From: Apoderus coryli
Taxonomy: Eukaryota; Arthropoda; Insecta; Coleoptera; Attelabidae
Length of the DNA stretch: 64,000 bases
Direction: 5' to 3'
Assembly: GCA_911728435.2 (NCBI GenBank)
Contig: OU452201.1
Location: 5,022,001 to 5,086,000 of the forward strand
In this document: positions 37,198 to 55,660 of the stretch, one piece after another
How the letters are laid out: each line of letters opens with the position of its first letter
How positions within the stretch are numbered: the stretch's first letter is position 1
Translations under genes and position numbers: made by a program
The notes under the pieces: model-generated
Databases searched by the model: none
What the model was told of the DNA's origin: nothing
Seen by the model: only the letters and a program-made list of their open reading frames with translations

Positions 37198-37840
37198 AAA
37201 TAAATAAAGCGTTTATTGCCCAACAGTTTCCCATTTAATGGACAATATTACAAACTAAAAAATTAAATGCTTAAATAAACTAAAATACTAATTTATAAAT
37301 CCTAATTAATTCCGCACACATACACACCACACCTAAACCACAAATGTCTCTGCAGCTACCATTTTCAAGTGATTGACTGTAGTTGTAAAAATGTCACACC
37401 TATCAGAAACTCAGGCGAGCTTAACAGTACATTGGTCCTAGCTCTGTGTAAGTGAAATGTTAAATTCGATCTGGTATTTAACCTAGGAACTAACAAATTC
37501 AAGCAAGATAGAAGAAAAGAGCAGTCGATTTTTTCTCTAAGCAATTTATATAAGATGGTTAATGAGCTCTGAATTCTTCGGTACTCCAGACTGTGAACGT
37601 CAAAACGTGATAGTAACAATTCATGATCGAAATCTCTTACTGGATAAGCACCATCGGTTCTAAAAACTAAATATTTCAAAAATCTACGTTGAATTTGCTC
37701 GACCTCTAGTTTATGAATATTATACTGAGGATACCAGATGATGGAAGAATACTCCAATTTTGACCTCACATAGGCATTGAACAAGGTTATTAGGTATTAT
37801 TGAAGCCTTTGCAGTTACGCATTATAAAGCCATACATGCG
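37198..37840 (-). pseudogene. LINE ORF2, 3' part (interrupted by the Polinton)
   Basis: C-terminal part of a Jockey-like LINE ORF2 on the minus strand. It has AYVRSKLEYSSIIWYP and VEQIQRRFLKYL, then a 3' UTR ending near a taaataaataaa run at 37198-37212. A frameshift lies around 37785-37795 and another near the C-terminus. The N-terminal continuation lies 17.8 kb away at 55655-56447; the reading frame across the target-site duplication is continuous, which shows that the Polinton split this LINE. Confidence 0.85.
37835..37840. repeat. Target-site duplication CATGCG (left)
   Basis: Six bases directly outside the left AG terminus, repeated exactly at 55655-55660. Six-bp duplications are diagnostic of Polinton integration. 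Confidence 0.93.
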
Positions 37841-38243
37841 AGTAGAGTGTATTAGCCGATTTTGGAATAGTCCCCCCACTCTTGTTTGTCACGTACGTGA
37901 CAAACAAGAGTGGGGGGACTATTCCAAGATCGGCTTATATGTACATATGTCAAAAGCAACCCTTTCCCCTAATCATTTGAGAAACCCGTCCATTACGTAA
38001 GCCAATGAGTGTATCAAACAAATCATGAATAAAGATGAGAGATCTAGAAACGGCTTATACTAGAATATGTGAAAACTACACAGCATGAATAGAAATTGGG
38101 AGATCTAGAAACGGCTAATATATACAGATGCGTGTGTGTGTGTGTGTGTGTGTCAACTATATAAAGAAGAAAGAGAGGGTTGTAACAAATCATGAATAGA
38201 GATAGGAGATCTAGAAACGGCTTATACTAGCATATGTCAAAAA
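37841..38243 (+). repeat. Polinton left terminal inverted repeat
   Basis: About 403 bp, matching 55262-55654 in reverse orientation. The first 126 bp are identical; substitutions and small indels follow. Inside it, agatctagaaacggct(t/a)at recurs three times (near 38040, 38101 and 38207) as part of an iterated block that also carries a GT run (38131-38152) and ataaagaagaaagagagggt. Confidence 0.92.
37854..37935. repeat. Terminal palindrome in left TIR
   Basis: A perfect 66-bp palindrome (37862-37927) centred on cacgt/acgtg, with arms beginning ttggaatagtcccccc. Allowing one mismatch it extends to 82 bp (agccgat...atcggct). It begins 13 bp from the element tip. The same structure occurs in the right TIR. 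Confidence 0.97.
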
Positions 38244-39817: not shown

Positions 39818-41053
39818 TTATAAACTTAATTTCGTGTTTACTACACCGTCTGAAATATTATACATCATATAAGAATCATGAATGATAATTGCATATACTT
39901 TTACATTTGCAGGAAACTGCGATTCGCGTGTTTCAAATTCTAATTTGATATCAACGCTAGAATGTTTGATTGCCTCTGGTTGACAAGAACAATCGATAAT
40001 GAAAACCGGGTTGTTTGGAAATTGACCCAAGCTTAATATTGGGTCGGAATGTTCTGTGTTATAATATTTTTGTTGAATATTCTGATATGTATGATATACT
40101 GCTCCGTAAAGTTTTTTAGAGAAATCTAAATTCCATTTCTCATATGGATACACTGTTGAGTTTAAATATGTTCTTATATTGGAAATGTTTGCGTGTATAA
40201 ATTGCGTGGCATCCATATTGATGTTTTCATAATTTGAAATATTTTGAAAGCCAATTATAATATAACGTGGTTTTTCGAGACTAGTAGTTGTTCTAATCGA
40301 CCATATATCTGAGCTAGTTTCACGTAATTTCGGTAGTTCATATAAGTCCCAAGACCGAAATGCAATATTAATTCGAGAATTTAGTCCTCCTTTATTAATT
40401 TTCATCATCAGTTTCAACTTCTGACTATCTTCGGGAACTATGTGATTAATTTTCCATTCAATTTTATTTATTTTTAAAATAGCACTTCCGTCACCAATAT
40501 AACTATTATTATAGTTTCTAGCAATTATTAATATAAGTTCGTGTCGTACATTAATGAAAGCGCCCTTATAGTCTTCAGCAATGCCAAATAAGTATTTCAA
40601 TGGCAATTTACCGCTGAAAACATGACTAATTGGATCCAGGATATCTTGTAAATCTTCGGACAAGCCCCAGCCACTACTACAAAGCCCTCTTTCTTGACTA
40701 TATGGACATAATGCCATAGTTTTCAGGGAAGTTGTAATCCCCGGTTTCCTAATCATAGCGACTTGCTCATTCCCAATCTCATATCTTATTTCTTCGAAAA
40801 GAAACGCTAATGAATTGTTTGATAAATAACAGGATTTCTTATCATCCTCAGCTTGAAATGTTCCTTCAATATAAATATAACTCTCAGAAATGTCTAATAT
40901 TAAGTCTTGGAAATTAACCGGAATTCGAACTTCATCGGAATTATTATATACGGGGCTGCCGTATGGTTTATATGTATATTCTTGAACGTTAGACAATGCA
41001 TTGTCAAACACAGGCTCTCCAAATATGTTTAATTTATTAGATAAGGATGACAT
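39818..41053 (-). CDS. Putative Polinton major capsid protein (411 aa)
   Basis: Largest structural-cluster protein. It opens with an aromatic, proline-containing segment (EYTYKPYGSPVYNNSDEVR), then VNFQDLILDISESYIYIEG and LAFLFEEIRYEIG. These look like strands of a jelly-roll fold and match the style of capsid proteins seen beside ATPase and protease in insect Polintons. Later blocks are PRYIIIGFQ and YPYEKWNLDFSKKLYGAVY. No signal peptide or transmembrane segment. The double jelly-roll assignment is inferred from size, predicted strand richness and position, not from a structure comparison. The ATG is at 41053, two bases after the stop of the upstream 63-aa frame. Last gene of the minus-strand cluster. 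Confidence 0.65.
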   Translation of the reverse strand: MSSLSNKLNIFGEPVFDNALSNVQEYTYKPYGSPVYNNSDEVRIPVNFQDLILDISESYIYIEGTFQAEDDKKSCYLSNNSLAFLFEEIRYEIGNEQVAMIRKPGITTSLKTMALCPYSQERGLCSSGWGLSEDLQDILDPISHVFSGKLPLKYLFGIAEDYKGAFINVRHELILIIARNYNNSYIGDGSAILKINKIEWKINHIVPEDSQKLKLMMKINKGGLNSRINIAFRSWDLYELPKLRETSSDIWSIRTTTSLEKPRYIIIGFQNISNYENINMDATQFIHANISNIRTYLNSTVYPYEKWNLDFSKKLYGAVYHTYQNIQQKYYNTEHSDPILSLGQFPNNPVFIIDCSCQPEAIKHSSVDIKLEFETRESQFPANVKVYAIIIHDSYMMYNISDGVVNTKLSL

Positions 41054-41055
41054 GT

Positions 41056-41247
41056 TTAATATTTTCGAATTTTTAAACCAATGGATTGAAGGAATATTTG
41101 ATTTTTTTTAGTAATAACACAACCGGAACCGTTGCTGTTGTAATTAGTACTGTTGCTTATCATCTCTTTCTTCCTCTTTTTTATATAAACATCATTCTTT
41201 GTAGGTGTATTGTGGTGTTTAATCACATTATTGTAAACAAACCCCAT
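41056..41247 (-). CDS. Small basic 63-aa protein between penton and capsid genes
   Basis: ATG at 41247, 27 bp after the penton-like stop; its stop lies 2 bp before the capsid ATG. Rich in lysine and asparagine (IKKRKKEM), with GSGCVITKK; no domain recognised. The tight fit between two structural genes argues that it is expressed, perhaps as a minor core or cement peptide. It could also be a spacer frame whose translation allows termination-reinitiation at the capsid ATG. Confidence 0.45.
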   Translation of the reverse strand: MGFVYNNVIKHHNTPTKNDVYIKKRKKEMISNSTNYNSNGSGCVITKKNQIFLQSIGLKIRKY

Positions 41248-41274: not shown

Positions 41275-42009
41275 TTAATCGAGCACTTTAAGTTCTAATT
41301 TTACAATAATTTTTTCACCACGAAAATTTAATAGCCTGCCTGTATCATCTAAAATTCTTATTGTAATATTTTCAATTGACTGACGTCCCAATGGTTTAAC
41401 TGGCATATATATAATATGTTGCGGTTCCTTTGTTAATCTATATCCTGGTTCGACGTCAATATCAAAATCAAACAGTGCATGTGATTCAATATCGTTAAAA
41501 AATGCACCACTGATTACATTGCAATGTACTGATATGATACGGACTCTCATAATATCAACCGGTAAAGTTGATTCGATCAACGTATTCGATGGTAAAATTG
41601 TTTTTCCAAATCCTAATAGTGAACCAATAGAATTGTCGGATGTGAAATCGATATCGTAAATAGACCATAATTCACATTTCAAAGTGTTTGAATTCGGATA
41701 CAAAAGAAATATTTGTTTATATTCATCCTCGCTGAAATTGTGTAAACCCATTAACATTAACAATTTTTTATATATTTCACCGATCTCATACGTCCCAGGT
41801 GGTATGAATACATTAATATAATCAACATCACTTTTATGCTTCTTATATGTGAATTTATTATTTTTTTCATCCACATTTAAAATAGAGTTATATGAATAAA
41901 AGGCAATTAATCCTAATCCATAACGTCTAGAGGTATCCAATTCAATTGGTGGATAATAATCTGCAGACAACTCACTAGATGTTCCAGACAACAGAAACGT
42001 TCTCGACAT
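41275..42009 (-). CDS. Putative penton-like minor capsid protein (244 aa)
   Basis: Start chosen at the ATG at 42009 (MSRTFLLSG); the frame remains open a little upstream but with no ATG. Recognisable blocks of the insect Polinton minor capsid family are the ELDTSRRYGLGLIAFYSYNS opening, NNKFTYK, FIPPGTYEIGEIYK, SIGSLLGFG, VHCNVISGAFF, EPGYRLTKEPQHIIYMPV and a C-terminal ITIRILDDTGRLLNFRGE. High beta content and single jelly-roll size fit a pentameric vertex protein. Neighbours are the 127-aa protein 33 bp upstream and the 63-aa frame 27 bp downstream. Assignment is by motif recognition and context. Confidence 0.72.
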   Translation of the reverse strand: MSRTFLLSGTSSELSADYYPPIELDTSRRYGLGLIAFYSYNSILNVDEKNNKFTYKKHKSDVDYINVFIPPGTYEIGEIYKKLLMLMGLHNFSEDEYKQIFLLYPNSNTLKCELWSIYDIDFTSDNSIGSLLGFGKTILPSNTLIESTLPVDIMRVRIISVHCNVISGAFFNDIESHALFDFDIDVEPGYRLTKEPQHIIYMPVKPLGRQSIENITIRILDDTGRLLNFRGEKIIVKLELKVLD

Positions 42010-42042
42010 GACTGGGCAATAAATCAAACTGAAATATTGCTT

Positions 42043-42426
42043 TTATTGCGACCAGCAACAGAATAGATGTAGTTTTTTCTTTTTATGTACCACTTTCTCC
42101 AAGTCAATTTCTCTAATATTACAAGAAACACAGAATATTTTTCTAGGAAATGGGCCGTCTATTTCGTCACCGTTTGCATTATTTGTCACATAATGTTCCA
42201 TACAATAAAAATATTTATTAATATCGTTGTCTTCACGTAAATGTTTAGGAAGTTTGTCCCAAACCAATGCGATTTCCTTTGAAGCACATGCAATCAGAAC
42301 CTCTTTAGGCATATCAGCAAGTTGTTTTTCATTCATTTTTATCAAACTACCCAATTGTGAGTAAGCACGTAAAGACTGAGCCATTTTTTTTATGTCATTA
42401 CGACTCATTTCCTGTATAGAATCCAT
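42043..42426 (-). CDS. Polinton 127-aa protein, function unknown
   Basis: ATG at 42426, so its first 29 bp overlap the end of the protease frame. Not recognised. The N-terminal half is helical (EMSRNDIKKMAQSLRAYSQL, then MPKEVLIACASKEIALVWDK). The C-terminal half holds FCVSC and HLFCCW around a lysine run, possibly one metal site. The position inside the structural cluster suggests a virion or assembly role; this is inference only. Confidence 0.6.
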   Translation of the reverse strand: MDSIQEMSRNDIKKMAQSLRAYSQLGSLIKMNEKQLADMPKEVLIACASKEIALVWDKLPKHLREDNDINKYFYCMEHYVTNNANGDEIDGPFPRKIFCVSCNIREIDLEKVVHKKKKLHLFCCWSQ

Positions 42427-42805
42427 CGTGATTGAGAAATTTCAAACATAGGTGTCCACACCACACCGTATTAAAATCTTGATCACAATTGTAATTATAA
42501 TATATTTTAAGAAGAGTATGTGAAATATTTTTTGTAAAATAATGTATTAACTCTTGAGGCGGTGGTAAATTACCAAAACTATCATAATAGTTAACTATAT
42601 TACCGCGTTTTTTATATGCTACCCAATGTGTACCTCTACCACTATTACTATCTAGATTTACAATTGCACATTCTTTATATAGTGGACCTGCTTTATTCAA
42701 ATTATTGCGACTATAAACACCGCGAAAATTTTTTATATTTAATCTATTAACATATTTTATAATGTCAAGATTTGATAGAGGTCTTCGTGGTAGAGGGTTT
42801 ACAAG
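42398..42805 (-). CDS. Adenain-like cysteine protease, no own start codon
   Basis: Maturation protease of the adenovirus type, expected to cleave capsid precursors inside virions. The triad is visible: His in GTHWVAY, Asp in YYDSFG, Cys in WCGHLC, with a Gln seven residues before the Cys (QDFNTVWC) as oxyanion residue. The frame contains no Met codon at all, from its upstream stop near 42915 through to 42398. Conserved-looking sequence extends back to the A_AAA_AAC heptamer at 42811-42805, where the PLA2 gene ends in the 0 frame. A -1 shift there would add 135 residues to a 294-residue PLA2 part. An indel in the A7 run is the alternative explanation. Confidence 0.85.
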   Translation of the reverse strand, partial: LVNPLPRRPLSNLDIIKYVNRLNIKNFRGVYSRNNLNKAGPLYKECAIVNLDSNSGRGTHWVAYKKRGNIVNYYDSFGNLPPPQELIHYFTKNISHTLLKIYYNYNCDQDFNTVWCGHLCLKFLNHDGFYTGNES

Positions 42806-43686
42806 TTTTTTTGATTTTTTAAATATAATCCAAATCCATTGCGGTGTTTTTTGAGTAGTAATCCACTTCCAACGATTGTCGGAGCATTTGATTTATTTCG
42901 ATGTTTGTTGTTTGTTATCTGCTCCTTTGAATTTTTTGTAGCATTCACAGCTCTTACAATTCCTGCAGCACCACCAGCCAAACTACCTAATGCCGACAAT
43001 CCTGCAAAAATGGGGATCAATGGCAAAACACCTCCAATTTTTGGTATAGATATAATGCGTGGTGTCTTAATTTTTTCTTTTCCTCCCATGTCTTTAACAT
43101 ATTTTCGAGCACATTTTAACGCTATTTTTGCAACCGATAAAGCATTATTCTTTTTATTTTTCACACAAGTCGTTTTTTTAATAGATTGTCTAATATTTTT
43201 TAAAACACCACCAACAAATGTTATACGTTTTTTATTATTTTTACGTCTATTACAACGGTTTCTTTTACATCCACTCGTTTTTTTAGGAGTAACACACGGA
43301 GTCCTCATACCTAATCCAAGCTTTCTTTTTGTTTTAATAATGTTTGTTACTAACCACGAATGTGCTCTCTCATTCACAGGTATCTGCTTTGATTTAGTTA
43401 ATTCCCAAGCACCATCTTCCAGGATTTTATCTGCTCTATGACGTTCACTTAAATGATTACTATTTGCATACGCTATGTCGTGTGTTTTACATAGTTTATC
43501 TAGAGAATTAACTCCTGAATCACCTCTTAACAGTCTTTTCCGTAATTTCGTTCCGACTCCACAATATTGATAACCAGGTATATGGAGTTCGATTGGGGTA
43601 TTATTAATTAACGCGTTTATAATACCTGCGCCAGTTTTTCGTTGACTTTGTTTGATAACACGTCTATCTAGCTCCACAGAGGCCAT
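42799..43686 (-). CDS. Phospholipase A2 / basic core / hydrophobic-tail protein (295 aa)
   Basis: ATG at 43686. Residues about 36-75 form a parvovirus/adintovirus-type PLA2 site: calcium loop PGYQYCGVGTKL and catalytic HD in CKTHDIAYAN (residues 66-75). Such domains breach the endosome during entry. A strongly basic stretch (KRNRCNRRKNNKKR, then repeated KK) resembles a DNA-condensing core protein. A Gly/Ala-rich hydrophobic segment at about 216-246 (GLSALGSLAGGAAGIVRAV) recalls the membrane-active or core peptides of adenovirus-like virions. The stop at 42801-42799 follows directly on the slippery site leading into the protease. Transcription diverges from the ATPase gene with only 46 bp between start codons. 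Confidence 0.85.
   Translation of the reverse strand: MASVELDRRVIKQSQRKTGAGIINALINNTPIELHIPGYQYCGVGTKLRKRLLRGDSGVNSLDKLCKTHDIAYANSNHLSERHRADKILEDGAWELTKSKQIPVNERAHSWLVTNIIKTKRKLGLGMRTPCVTPKKTSGCKRNRCNRRKNNKKRITFVGGVLKNIRQSIKKTTCVKNKKNNALSVAKIALKCARKYVKDMGGKEKIKTPRIISIPKIGGVLPLIPIFAGLSALGSLAGGAAGIVRAVNATKNSKEQITNNKHRNKSNAPTIVGSGLLLKKHRNGFGLYLKNQKNL
42805..42811 (-). promoter_or_regulatory. Candidate -1 ribosomal frameshift site A_AAA_AAC
   Basis: In the PLA2 frame the codons are CAA AAA AAC TTG TAA, giving the canonical slippery heptamer A AAA AAC six bases before the stop codon ends. A -1 slip enters the Met-less protease frame directly. I see no obvious strong stem or pseudoknot in the next 60 bases, which is the main weakness. 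Confidence 0.6.
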
Positions 43687-43732
43687 AAAAATAACATAAA
43701 CCAGTTAATAATTTACATTCTTATATGTGATA

Positions 43733-44428
43733 ATGAGGCTCATTAAACAAGATCAAAATTTCAAAGTAGAAAATTTTGATTTTTCAAATAATACTACGGC
43801 AAATGAAATTAAACGCCACGGACCGTTACTACCGAATACAATACGGGGCTTGATCATTGGTAGAAGCAATACTGGGAAAACCGCTGTTATGATTTCTTTA
43901 TTAACACACCCCAACGGTTTACATTTTAAGAATATCTACATATATACGAAAACATTATTCCAGAGCAAATACAGGTATTTGGCTGAAGTCGTTGCACCAA
44001 TAAACGGTCTTGGTTATTACACTTTTAATAATAATGAATCTATAATTCCACCATTAGAAGCAAAAGTAGATTCTGTATTTATATTTGACGATGTTATATG
44101 TGAGAAACAAAATGTAATTAGAGAATACTTTTGTATTTCGCGTCATAAGAATATTGATGTTTTTTTTCTATCCCAAGGCTATTCTAAAGTGTCGAAACAA
44201 TTAATTCGGGAAAATTCCAACTTTCTAATAATCTTCACACAGGATGAAACAAATCTCCGACATATATATAGTGATCACGTCAATCCAGACATGGAATTTA
44301 CACAATTCGCGCAAATATGCAAACTTTGTTGGAATGAAGATTTTGGATTCCTTGTAATCGATAAAGATAGTCCATTAAATCAGGGCCGATATCGAAAAGG
44401 ATTGGATAATTATATATGCCTGCAATAA
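43733..44428 (+). CDS. Genome-packaging ATPase (HerA/FtsK-type, A32-like)
   Basis: Pumps DNA into preformed capsids in this lineage. The Walker A motif GRSNTGKT is at residues 43-50 and Walker B VFIFDDV at 115-121. The block ISRHKNIDVFFLSQGY is typical of the sensor region of A32-like packaging ATPases. 231 aa, a normal size for Polinton ATPases. The ATG at 43733 was chosen; an in-frame GTG two codons earlier is also possible. The stop codon TAA sits inside AATAAA (44425 onward), so stop and polyadenylation signal overlap. First of four plus-strand genes; divergent from the PLA2/protease gene. Confidence 0.88.
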   Translation: MRLIKQDQNFKVENFDFSNNTTANEIKRHGPLLPNTIRGLIIGRSNTGKTAVMISLLTHPNGLHFKNIYIYTKTLFQSKYRYLAEVVAPINGLGYYTFNNNESIIPPLEAKVDSVFIFDDVICEKQNVIREYFCISRHKNIDVFFLSQGYSKVSKQLIRENSNFLIIFTQDETNLRHIYSDHVNPDMEFTQFAQICKLCWNEDFGFLVIDKDSPLNQGRYRKGLDNYICLQ

Positions 44429-46082: not shown

Positions 46083-46133
46083 CAAACAGAATGTATATGG
46101 GCAAGATAGTATTGCAATGATTCTTAATTAGTA

Positions 46134-47057
46134 ATGAGCACCAAATTGAGTATTGTAAATGAAATTCATAGGGGTGCTCGTCGAAATTTTCGACGTAGAA
46201 GAATAAATATTGTTGGTTTTGCAGATCTTTGGCAGCTTGATTTAGCAGACATTCAGCAATACTCTAGTATGAATAATGGATATAGGTATATTCTTGTAGT
46301 TATCAATTGTTTTTCAAAATTTGTGTGGGTGAAAGCATTAAAAAATAAAACAGGTGTTGAAGTAAGCAATAAAATGAGAGAAATTTTAAACGGTGTGCAT
46401 AAGAAGGAATTACCTAAGTACATACAGACAGACAATGGCACAGAATTTTACAATAAATACTTCTCGCAATTAATGAAATCAAATAAAATACATCATTATT
46501 CAGTCTTTAGTACAAAGAAGGCAGCCATTGTTGAACGTGTCATTAGAACATTGAAAAATTGGTTGTATAAACAATTCTCGTTCAGGGGAAAATATGTATG
46601 GACTGATATATTGGATGATATTGTACAAACATATAATAATCGAATACATAGAACAACTGGTTTCGCCCCCGCCTCTGTTCTACCCTCAACGAAAATTCCA
46701 GCTTATATCCAACGACGTGAACGTGTAAAAAAACCAAAATTTAAAACAAATGACATCGTGCGAATTTCGAAATATAAACATATTTTTGAGAAGGGTTATT
46801 TTTTTAATTGGACTGTAGAACTTTTTAAAATTGTAAAAGTGCGGAAGTCTATACCAACCACTTATTATTTACATGATATGAATGGGGTTCCAATACAAGG
46901 TTGTTTTTATGAATATGAACTATTGAAAACAAAAAATCCAGACAATTATTTAATCGAAAAAGTTGTGAGAAAACGTGGTGACAGAATCCTAGTAAAATGG
47001 TTTGGTTTTAATAGCACACACAACAGTTGGATACATAAAAATGACGTGCTCCAATAA
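46134..47057 (+). CDS. Retroviral-type DDE integrase with chromodomain (307 aa)
   Basis: Joins element ends to host DNA and makes the 6-bp duplication. The catalytic core has the first Asp in WQLDLAD (residue 36), the second in QTDNGTEF (residue 100) and the Glu in AAIVERVIRTLK (residue 134). TYNNRIHRTTGFAPASVL follows, as in other Polinton and LTR integrases. The C-terminus (about 270-305) is a chromodomain, with YLIEKVVRKRGDRILVKWFG and then a Trp-containing W-I-H-K end, likely guiding integration to modified histones. No N-terminal HHCC zinc domain is present. Intact. Followed by an AT repeat and a poly-A tract at 47066-47123. Confidence 0.92.
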   Translation: MSTKLSIVNEIHRGARRNFRRRRINIVGFADLWQLDLADIQQYSSMNNGYRYILVVINCFSKFVWVKALKNKTGVEVSNKMREILNGVHKKELPKYIQTDNGTEFYNKYFSQLMKSNKIHHYSVFSTKKAAIVERVIRTLKNWLYKQFSFRGKYVWTDILDDIVQTYNNRIHRTTGFAPASVLPSTKIPAYIQRRERVKKPKFKTNDIVRISKYKHIFEKGYFFNWTVELFKIVKVRKSIPTTYYLHDMNGVPIQGCFYEYELLKTKNPDNYLIEKVVRKRGDRILVKWFGFNSTHNSWIHKNDVLQ

Positions 47058-49751: not shown

Positions 49752-52700
49752 ATGTATTTATGCAACGGTTGCAATATGGAATTCACTCATATGTCGAATT
49801 TAAATAGGCATATGAGACAATCATGTAAACACACATTAAATATTGAAAATAGTGTGAAAAGACAAAAGCTTAATAGTGAAAAAGATGTAAAAATTATGTG
49901 TTCGTCATGTGAAATCGAAATAGATTCAAATAAAATTAGCGGGCATTATAGAAGTATGTTGCATAAAAGAAATGCGGATTGTACAACAGTATCGGACAAT
50001 GTTAAAATTGTGTATACAGCCTTTAAAGATAGAATTACAACTTTTCGAGTGACACCGCTAAATAAATATGGGGACTATAGCGCGTTTTTTAGTGAATTAA
50101 AACCCATAATTTTAAAGTTAATTTCCGATTCGTTAAACACACACACAGTCGTTAAAGTTAATTTAGAAGTTTTTAGTATATATAGTCTGTCAATTCAAGA
50201 AACTATTGAAACTAAATCATTTATTACACATAATAAAATTATTGATTTTGGAAGTGATGTTAGTGAAATATATGATTCTTTTATTGAAACTCTTAAAACT
50301 AAATCCGAGGAGTTTTTAGAAAGAGACTCTGGTAAGTTTTCATTGATTATATCTAAGTCACGTTTTATTTATTTTATTTTTTTTTCCACATATTTCCAGG
50401 ATGGACGCTCGTGGAAAATCTGTTTATTGAAGCAAACATTAATAAATACAAACCAATTCGAGGGTCGTCATTTATTAAATTACCGAAATATATTCAAAAT
50501 AAAAAAGCTGTGATTAACGTACAAAATGACGATCAGCATTGCTTCATATGGTCAATTTTAGCCGCATTGTACCCCACATCACAAAATTCTCAATACACGA
50601 CATCATATCCACATTACAGCGGAGTTCTTAATTTATTAGGTTTAGATTTCCCCATGAAATTAAAGGACATTACTAAATTCGAAAATCTTAATAATATTTC
50701 AATAAATGTTTATGGTTTAGAGAGAGTAATCAACAATAATAAAATGGAATACGATATTGTCGGCCCATTGAGGTTTGCTTCTAGGAGATTTTTCCACCAT
50801 ATTAATTTGTTACTTATTAGTGATGATGCTAATGAACGTTATCATTACTGTTGGATAAAAAATCTTTCGAGATTGATATCGAAACAAGTATCATCTCATC
50901 AACACGGAATTAATTTATGTGACGGATGTTTATCATTTTTTAGCTCAAATGAATTATTAAAATCGCATCAAATGTATGATTGCAATCATATTAGTGTATG
51001 CACACCGTCGAAAAATTTGAAAATCGATAAGTTTGGTAAAAGCGTACCGGAAAATATATTAAAATTCGAAAATTTTGAGAAGCAATTACCCGTACCATTC
51101 ATAGTTTATGCCGATTTCGAATCAATATTAAAACCAATCACAACGTGTGAACCTAATCCAAAAAAGTCATATATGCAGCAGACTTTCAAACATGAGCCAT
51201 ACGCCTTTTCATACTACATTAAATGTCGTCATGATGATTCCAAATCTAAATTGGTATTATATCGCGGAGAAAATGCTGCTGAAGAATTTGTAAATAGATT
51301 GGAGACCGATTTAAAAGTAATTTATAATCGCTATTTAAGCGTAGTTGTACCAATGTTACCTTTGAATGGCGATGAAATGTTGGAATTCCAGAATGCTAAG
51401 ATATGTGCCATATGTAATAGAGAATTTGTAGATACTGATATAAAAGTAATGGATCATGATCATATCACAGGGGTTAAACGATCTGGAGCCGCACATTCAA
51501 TTTGTAATTTAAATTTTAAAATACAGCATTATATTCCAATAGTCTTTCATAATATGTCATATGATAGTCATCTTTTCATTAAACAATTGGTCGATAACGA
51601 TAGTAAATTAGATGTTATCGCACAGACTAAGGAGAAGTATATGTTGATAACAAAACGAGTTCCTATGAATTCATACATTGATAAAAATGGACATTGTAAA
51701 ACAAGATACATGCAAATGCGATTTATTGATAGTTTTAATTTCCTACAATCATCATTACAAAACCTTAGTGATAGTTTACACACTGATCAGTTTAATGCCA
51801 CACGTAAATATTTTGGGAGAACTGAAAAATTTAAATTAATGAGACAAAAAGGTGTGTTCCCATATAATTTTTTAGATGATTTGCAAAAATTAAACACCCC
51901 ATATTTACCAACAAAAGACGATTTTTTTGATAAGTTAAATGATGAAGCGGTTAGCGAAGTTGATTATAATAGAGCGCAAGAAGTGTGGAAAATATTTGAA
52001 TGTGAAACCCTAGGACAATATGCAGATATATATTTACAATCTGATGTACTCTTACTATGTGACGTATTTGAAAGCTTTAGAGACAAAAGCTTAGAGACAT
52101 ATCAATTAGATCCTGGTCACTATATAAGTTTACCATCATTAAGCTGGGACAGTATGCTCCGTTTAACTAAAATTGAACTTGAATTATTGACCGACATAGA
52201 CATGATACATTTTTTCAAGGCAGGTATTCGCGGCGGAATTAGCCAGTGTTCTGATAGAATGCATGTGGCAAATAATCCATTAATACCTGGTTTTGATGAA
52301 AGCAAACCAGAGAGTTATATTATGTATTTGGATGCAACCAATTTGTATGGTCATTCGATGTCACAATCACTACCTGAAAACGACTTTTCTTGGCTATCGA
52401 AAGAGGAAATTAGCGAATTAGAGTTGTTAAATATAGCCGAACATAATCGACGCGGTTTCATATACGAGGTTGACGTTGAATATCCCACATATCTCCACGA
52501 CGAACATTCGGATTTGCCGTTCCTAGTTGAAAGTCTAATACCACCTCTTTCTAAAAGCGTTACGCCCAAGTTAATCCCAAATTTACTCAATAAAGAGAAA
52601 TATGTTGTGCATTATCGTACGTTGCAACAGGCTGTGAGACATGGTTTAATAATAAAAAATATTCACAGAGTTTTGGGTTTTAATCAATCTCGCTGGTTGA

Positions 52701-53617
52701 AAAAATATATTGATTTAAATACATCGTTGCGTAATAAAACATCTAATAAATTTGAAAAATCGTTTTATAAAATTTTAAATAATTCGATTTACGGAAAATC
52801 CGTCGAGAATGTAGATAATAGAAAAGATATTAAATTAGTAACGAGTTGGGAAAATAAAGGGAAACATTTAGGAGCTCGCGCATTGATTGCGAAACCACAT
52901 TACAAAACATCTTCGATTTTTACGGAAAACCTGGTAGCAATTCACATGGGCAAATTAAAGATTTTATATGATAAACCAATATATCTAGGATTTTCTATAT
53001 TAGATCTATCCAAAACGGTTGTGTATGGTTTCTTCTACGACGTCTTAAAAAAAAATTTTGGTGAGAAAATTAATTTATTATATACCGACACAGACTCTCT
53101 TGTATTCAAAGCGGAAGAAAACTTTTACGATTTCATGAAAGAGAATACACACCATTTCGATACATCCAATTATAATACACAAAACTCTTTAAATATGCCA
53201 GTCACAGAATCAATCATAGGGAGATTTAAAGACGAATATCCCAATGACCCAATCCTATCTTTTTTCGGAACTGGGGCTAAAGCATACTGTATTAAAACTC
53301 AGAACACGGAATTGAAACGAGCGAAAGGGGTTAAAAAATCTATTGTAAATAAAACATTGTCTATTGAAGACTATAATAAAATAGTCACCACAGGTGGGTA
53401 TATATTTCGCAAAATGAATTCATTTAAGAGTACGTTACACGATGTATATACCGAAACAATTAATAAAATTGCTCTGTCACACAAAGATGATAAAAGATTT
53501 TTAATTCCGAATAGCACAAAATCAATTCCGTGGGGGCATAAAGATATAGCTTTTTATAGTATAAATCCAGAAGAGAGATTAAAAATATTATTAAATATGG
53601 TGGAAGAAATGTCTTGA
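49752..53617 (+). CDS. PolB: Protein-primed-type DNA polymerase B (spliced, 1265 aa)
   Basis: Replicates the element. Exon 1 is 49752-50331, a 68-bp intron is 50332-50399 (gtaagt...ttccag), and exon 2 is 50400-53617; phases agree. N-terminus: zinc finger CNGCNMEF-x-NRHMRQSC and a CSSC...H pair. Around 230-250 lies DDQHCFIWSILAAL, then CDGC-type finger near 380. Exonuclease: YADFESI (~431), FHNMSYDSHLF (~576), YLQSDVLLL (~738). Between Exo I and II is a His-Me finger insertion, CAIC with DHDHITG and HSICN (~529-570). Polymerase: LDATNLYG (~836), KILNNSIYG (~984), YTDTDSL (~1088) and AKGVKK. All catalytic residues present. ATG at 49752 precedes the first finger. The N-terminal region is where a terminal protein would be expected. 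Confidence 0.92.
50332..50399 (+). other. Short intron in the PolB gene
   Basis: 68 bp with donor GTAAGT, a T-rich tract and acceptor TTCCAG. Reading through gives a frame that ends about 180 bp later and separates the zinc-finger part from the polymerase; removal restores one frame. Confidence 0.85.
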
Positions 53618-54990: not shown

Positions 54991-55261
54991 TTTAATTGTG
55001 TGAACAAAAAATTTATATCACTTAATATTATTAAACAAATTAAAATAGTTGATAATCTAAGATTTGCTTCTAACTTGAGAATAATCAAGAGAAATCCACA
55101 CACTCTTTTATATACCAACGTATTCATTCACTTGTGTTATTAAAAAAGAAGGAATCACATTAGCAACCCTCTCTTTCTTCTTTATATAGTTGACACACAC
55201 ACACACGCATATGTATATATTAGCCGTTTCTAGATCTCCCCATCTATATTCATGGTGTGTA
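54991..55261. promoter_or_regulatory. Promoter region of the 113-aa gene and extra TIR repeat copy
   Basis: TATATAAAAG on the minus strand (55114-55105) lies about 115 bp before the ATG. From about 55165 the sequence repeats the ataaagaagaaagagagggt / agatctagaaacggct block once more than the left side does. Confidence 0.5.
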
Positions 55262-55654
55262 TTTTTGACATATGCTAGTATAAGCCGTTTCTAGATCTCC
55301 TATCTCTATTCATGATTTGTTACAACCCTCTCTTTCTTCTTTATATAGTTGACTCACACACACACGCATAAGTATATATTAGCCGTTTCTAGATCTCCCC
55401 ATCTATATTCATGCTGTGTAGTTTTGACATATAGTATAAACCGTTTCTAGATCTCTCATCTTTATTCATGATTTGTTCGATACACCCATTGGCTTGCGTA
55501 ATGGATGGGGTTTCTCAAATGATTAGGAGAAAGGGTTGCTTTTGACATATGTACATATAAGCCGATCTTGGAATAGTCCCCCCACTCTTGTTTGTCACGT
55601 ACGTGACAAACAAGAGTGGGGGGACTATTCCAAAATCGGCTAATACACTCTACT
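55262..55654 (-). repeat. Polinton right terminal inverted repeat
   Basis: Reverse complement of the left TIR; 126 outer bp identical, then scattered differences. The motif agccgtttctagatct (or its one-base variant) occurs near 55281, 55381 and 55440, with a further copy inside the TIR boundary at 55223. Confidence 0.92.
55560..55641. repeat. Terminal palindrome in right TIR
   Basis: Same 66-bp perfect palindrome as on the left (55568-55633, centre between 55600 and 55601), extending to 82 bp with one mismatch. The open frame that appears here is produced by the palindrome and flanking LINE. Confidence 0.97.
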
Positions 55655-55660
55655 CATGCG
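55655..55660. repeat. Target-site duplication CATGCG (right)
   Basis: Exact copy of 37835-37840, immediately after the CT terminus of the Polinton. Confidence 0.93.

Follow-up and report, generated by a model that had tools for sequence, protein, structure and literature searches.

Retroviral proteases are aspartic enzymes, and retroviral slip sites, of which the A_AAA_AAC used by mouse mammary tumor virus (MMTV) is one, are usually accompanied by a stimulatory structure. Two general papers on frameshifting served for comparison (PMC8310308 and PMC7297798); according to the former, the MMTV protease lies in the −1 frame relative to gag, the first shift is about 23% efficient, and frameshifting is known from relatively few eukaryotic DNA viruses. 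Here we describe a comparable junction in a 64,000-nucleotide (nt) stretch of Apoderus coryli contig OU452201.1 (the window), which contains a Polinton with a PLA2-domain core gene encoded on the minus strand. As in MMTV and its relatives, the protease comes after a structural gene and in the −1 frame relative to it; in contrast with those viruses, the protease is an adenain-type cysteine protease, the element is an integrating double-stranded DNA element, and no shared RNA structure was found. Conserved −1 ribosomal frameshifting from the core gene into the protease is the best explanation of this arrangement and a very probable one, and by analogy the Polinton junction would work like retroviral gag-pro without being a member of that family.

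Two described systems come closer in gene content. In a 2024 adintovirus preprint (PMC11071296), −1 frameshifts close to the 3′ end are put forward for some Penton open reading frames (ORFs) on the basis of KnotInFrame, and “a similar relationship” is proposed for Hexon-Adenain (“Hexain”) fusions. The virus group is related, the protease is the same, and a −1 frameshift is proposed; however, the upstream gene in that brief prediction is Hexon or Penton, whereas the present case concerns the PLA2 core gene and includes comparative tests. The section of that preprint on frameshifts does not mention a PLA2 core gene. Sf Maverick elements, which belong to the insect Mavericks, encode an adenain-like PRO and a CAP that has a PLA2 domain (PMC5803895), but the two are described without a frameshift between them; in the main text of that paper, “frameshift” occurs twice, both times concerning errantiviruses, and “start codon” and “overlap” are absent. 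A core-protease frameshift is likewise unreported in the available parts of PMC8363768, PMC8097293, PMC6431247, PMC8547959, PMC10120064, and PMC12721341, and no report was found in the titles and abstract openings of the open-access papers searched.

The core-protease junction and its copies

On the minus strand of the window, the core gene (43686 to 42799; 295 amino acids [aa]; Pfam Phospholip_A2_4, 6e-9) ends with CAA (42813-42811), AAA (42810-42808), AAC (42807-42805), TTG, and the stop TAA (42801-42799). The heptamer A_AAA_AAC (42811-42805) thereby fits X_XXY_YYZ in the 0 frame, in the right register for a −1 slip, and C42805 is the first codon position in the protease frame (42805 to 42398; 135 aa after the slip). 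Bounded upstream by a stop at 42895-42893, that frame runs open between 42892 and 42398 and so opens 91 nt ahead of the core stop. The overlap lacks an ATG, and the 135 residues after the slip include no Met; moreover, the window copy (L002) has no CTG, GTG, TTG, or ACG in the protease frame from the upstream stop to 45 nt past the slip. The first-pass annotation had described a Met-less protease frame with a complete His/Asp/Gln/Cys set, entered by a −1 slip where the 0 frame reads CAA AAA AAC TTG TAA. Direct reading bore out this description, coordinates and frames included, except that the upstream stop had been placed near 42915, about 20 nt off. By itself, a single heptamer makes a weak, suggestive case. 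The window holds 80 copies of AAAAAAC versus 58 expected, and about 0.06 in-register heptamers would be expected by chance in the 91-nt overlap; it is conservation that carries the argument.

We located copies of the junction in the 428-Mb assembly of the host's own genome through protease matches. The 104 matched stretches comprised the 90 loci analyzed, 9 further stretches that belong to these loci as second pieces, and 5 short fragments, which were left out; 23 stretches were 100% identical, a second subfamily was ~92% identical, and long diverged stretches were mostly 46 to 53% identical. The heptamer was in register at 76 of the 90 loci (61 from the window group, made up of subfamilies A and B and variants, plus 4 from C, 4 from E, and 7 from F), and its C preceded a fixed domain residue by 24 nt, or by 27 nt in subfamily C. 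The junctions read CAA AAA AAC TTG TAA in A, CAA AAA AAC TAG in B, TCA AAA AAC TTC TAA in C, TCA AAA AAC TTC CAA TAA in E, and AAA AAA AAC TTC CAG TGA in F, such that the flanks vary among subfamilies and the heptamer is constant. In the protease tree, lineages with the heptamer occupy three branches (A/B, E, and C+F). An alignment of related copies had been proposed as the check on the first-pass reading, and the retention of heptamer and offset across these branches speaks for it. Codon choice points the same way: Lys codons in these A-rich genes are AAA in 253 of 302 cases, but the junction Asn is AAC in every subfamily read versus 50 of 223 Asn codons overall. Given Lys-Asn, the chance of AAC in all three lineages would be near 0.01, with the required preceding A left uncounted.

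The A run is usually 7 nt long in A/B, 6 nt in C and E, and 8 nt in F, with single A and F copies having 6, 7, or 9. The run had been flagged as indel prone, but A7 preceded CTTGTAA 42 times and A6 did so once across the 90 loci. Because A7 recurs across these loci and an identical protease is encoded at 23 places, base-calling error is unlikely; the many copies and lineages argue against both base-calling error and decay as the cause of the frame break. These 23 places (L001 to L023 of genome G000) also indicate that the Polinton probably spread recently in the host genome. Contigs C1 and C16 carry many diverged copies.

An ATG upstream of the domain in the protease frame was present at 3 of the 76 in-register loci (L031, L060, and L065). 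Subfamily D differs: its core gene ends CTC AAA TGA, without the heptamer, and at L043, L044, and L045 repeated ATGs in the protease frame overlap the core stop. L053, where the match starts late, has the same junction as the other D loci plus one extra repeat. On the evidence of these sequences, subfamily D appears to be a natural swap in which the protease's own start replaces the slip.

The protease and its database relatives

The residues His60, Asp75, Gln109, and Cys116 are all present in the window frame, and in an alignment of 58 sequences His60, Gln109, and Cys116 are invariant and Asp75 is nearly so. A profile of the 58 matched adenain (peptidase C5; 1avp) at an E value of 1.3e-4. Peptidase_C5 was matched at an E value of 1 or better by 33 of the 58 members (best, 5.2e-5); the window protease alone (P0001) had no Pfam match. 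The predicted fold of the protease is the adenain fold. The protease is under purifying selection, with a dN/dS of 0.19 for subfamily A against B, and protease dS between A/B and the other subfamilies is at least 1.27.

Relatives in the protein database were considered as the best 120 of 1,246 core matches and the best 120 of 563 protease matches. Among the 120 core relatives listed, 116 have Lys-Asn 0 to 2 residues before the C terminus (P0025, P0054, P0076, and P0110 do not); when the last 25 residues were shuffled in 2,000 rounds, a mean of 6.5 and a maximum of 17 of the 120 did so. The residue preceding Lys-Asn is S, Q, P, T, K, A, or E, and the eight residues without any A-ending codon never occur there (0 of 116, versus a background of 24%). 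In 114 of the 116, Lys-Asn is followed by a stop or by a codon for Y, F, S, or C. The named relatives in this large Polinton group are insects; sources of the core relatives include Molorchus, Leptinotarsa, Exocentrus, Ignelater, and Trypoxylus, which are beetle genera. DNA relatives outside the host genome were found neither in viral_contigs (protease, core alignment, and capsid protein queries) nor in genome_contigs (core alignment) or phages (protease).

The tails of the core relatives repeat a motif of the G-x-G-[LVI]-[YF]-[LMI] type (P0003 to P0122), which occurs several times in P0245. A pVIc-like cofactor role for the core tail is offered here purely as an idea.

Proposed frameshifting and other routes to the protease

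We propose that ribosomes translating the PLA2 core gene would meet A_AAA_AAC 0 to 2 codons ahead of the stop. The majority would read through the heptamer and terminate, producing core protein, whereas a minority would slip by −1, with the Lys- and Asn-tRNAs re-pairing on AAA AAA, and would proceed with CTN into the protease, producing a core-protease fusion whose protease domain would start ~8 residues after the slip. By way of the fusion, the protease may then enter particles during assembly in a set proportion and there mature the capsid, in the manner of retroviral Gag-Pro; we lean moderately toward this particle-dosing role. The slip and its rate, the fixed ratio of products, and the packaging and processing of the fusion are what we infer from the arrangement. 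The gag-pro-like slip from core into protease put forward in the first-pass annotation thus finds support in the conserved heptamer and offset. If true, a site conserved across a large group of virus-like transposons would account for the production of a protease that has no start codon. It would predict that protease and core are incorporated jointly and add evidence for particle formation by Polintons; for annotation, it would also serve as a warning that a frame break at the core-protease junction does not equal decay. A broader scenario, to which we give an even chance, is that Polintons of this large group, whose named relatives are insects, evolved gag-pro logic independently of retroviruses, in which a membrane-active PLA2 core would carry the maturation protease into the particle in cis through conserved −1 frameshifting in place of the adenovirus-type separate protease and cofactor peptide, some lineages having switched to an ATG or to an in-frame fusion.

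Several findings weigh against frameshifting. The case is built on DNA and protein sequence analysis. At 14 of the 90 loci, no in-register heptamer was placed: 4 are the subfamily D loci, and 10 are degraded, truncated, or unplaced (L048 and L050, CCAAATAAC; L085, AAAAATAC; L087, with a deletion; L056, L059, and L062, off register; L057, whose N terminus is absent; and L058 and L089, in which AAAAAAC is visible and the domain is unplaced). The deeper forks of the protease tree are weak, so the site may have one common origin, in which case it would have been retained since; the relatives, too, are nonindependent samples. The database holds proteins only, such that AAC itself is seen in the host genome alone. 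Among the 120 protease relatives listed, 82 have their initial M at the domain or ahead of it; in 2 more, an L or V takes that place, 15 have their start within the first helix, and 21 still further in. Some elements may use both their own start and the slip, or the M may be a predictor's rendering of GTG or TTG.

In-frame fusions also count on this side. Six of 18 long protease proteins carry PLA2 in the same frame (P0076, P0243, P0244, P0245, P0247, and P0248), although P0076, P0243, P0244, and P0247 are NCBI gene models that may conceal introns or corrections; P0246 shows a core-like tail but lacks PLA2, and 4 of the 120 protease proteins listed have a core tail in the same frame (P0140, P0237, P0238, and P0241). 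The 563 protease matches were proteins of 74 to 236 residues and the fused-form search, worded differently, covered 212 to 676 residues; the ratio between the two is therefore not a measured frequency. From these sequences, a one-frame fusion appears to occur and to be tolerated yet to be unusual among the relatives listed. The first-pass annotation had held that a fused ORF in most copies would speak against the slip, and these minorities leave its reading standing. P0237, P0241, P0244, and P0247, one-frame core-protease proteins, still have KKN at the junction. They resemble dnaX-type systems, differing from the window junction in that their long product is the 0-frame product and in that they are known from proteins alone; a slip at their KKN could shorten, not extend, the product. 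KKN is also found within the protease frame of P0137 and P0163.

RNA structure gave a divided result. Directly 3′ of the heptamer, the window's subfamily has a possible long-range stem-loop (42711..42804, minus strand; minimum free energy, −17.7; z, −2.91; 0 of 200 shuffles as stable); it folds better than shuffles over 100 to 110 nt (z, −2.9 and −2.5) and less clearly so over 140 nt (z, −1.2). Subfamily E2 had a z of −2.05 over 110 nt and B2 a z of −2.85 over 60 nt. Also unfavorable to frameshifting, B, B2, C, D, E, and F over 110 nt had z values of −0.8 to +0.6, and alifold on 11 representatives returned 0.0 kcal/mol, i.e., no common fold, with programs that are blind to pseudoknots. A family-wide structure was not found, and the earlier remark that no obvious downstream structure exists holds for the family, with the window's subfamily as a possible exception.

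Could the protease be made in another way? Separate translation, with ribosomes reinitiating past the core stop or starting at a non-AUG codon, would accommodate the subfamily D ATGs that overlap the core stop and the initial M of the 82 listed protease relatives, as well as the GTG (F copies) or ATG (L060) two codons past the slip and, slightly further on, the CTG of B2 and the TTG and CTG of E. We nevertheless regard it as improbable: the window copy lacks both a Met after the slip and, in the scanned stretch, any near-cognate codon of the four types, the representatives of B (L033) and C (L039 and L042) also lack such codons, and separate translation leaves unexplained the Lys-Asn that follows an A-compatible codon beside the stop. 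Transcriptional slippage, in which slipping of RNA polymerase at the A run would bring the two frames together in some of the mRNAs, suits the runs of 7 (A/B) and 8 (F), but the C and E lineages have only six As, and the C after the run stands in tandem-slip register, which a polymerase would presumably not need; this route is very unlikely.

The two remaining explanations seem to us less probable still. A small intron might join the frames, and GT-AG pairs in the right phase exist in all 11 representatives (11 to 37 candidates), with a pair at −192/+23 found, to within 6 nt, in four (A, B, B2, and E2) of 7 representatives; however, no GT-AG pair is common to all 7, the best donors fit 5 to 7 of 9 consensus positions, an intron gives no prediction of Lys-Asn beside the stop, and intact vertebrate Mavericks are described with intronless ORFs (PMC8097293). 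Alternatively, Lys-Asn might be kept as a protein motif (e.g., a C-terminal signal or cleavage site) with the heptamer as a by-product, which would be eased by the 253 of 302 Lys codons that are already AAA. The uniform AAC of the junction Asn (versus 50 of 223 overall) and the A preceding the motif argue to the contrary; a protein motif would also leave the −1 protease of the window copy without an expression route, and subfamily D lacks Lys-Asn precisely where an ATG is present. Conserved frameshifting is the reading we retain.

Gene content of the element

The surrounding element has the features of a Polinton/Maverick, namely, terminal inverted repeats, an rve integrase, a double jelly-roll (DJR) capsid protein, an A32 ATPase, and the adenain-like protease. 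The left repeat (37840..38243, plus strand) pairs with the right repeat (55193..55655, minus strand), the arms being 91 to 99% complementary. On the minus strand lie the DJR major capsid protein (39818..41107; Pfam DJR-like_dom, 5.7e-79), a 255-aa ORF in the penton position (41275..42042), identified by position alone and without a match in a Pfam search, and the next ORF 3′ of the protease (42043..42426), which has its own ATG inside the protease end. The plus strand carries the packaging ATPase (A32-like; 43712..44428; Pfam Pox_A32, 5.5e-5) and a 1,086-aa ORF in the PolB position (50357..53617), with Endonuclease_7 at 1.6e-4 (just under the cutoff) and other weak Pfam matches. The ORF had no PolB match in Pfam at an E value of 0.1; its position and a motif make it a candidate for the protein-primed DNA polymerase B. 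Also on the plus strand is the rve integrase (46128..47057; Pfam rve, 5e-10), with a chromodomain-like tail (Chromo, 0.011, under its cutoff). In the database proteins P0249, P0250, P0253, and P0256, a protease match and the rve integrase family occur together, and in P0249 the protease comes first, followed by the integrase in one frame.
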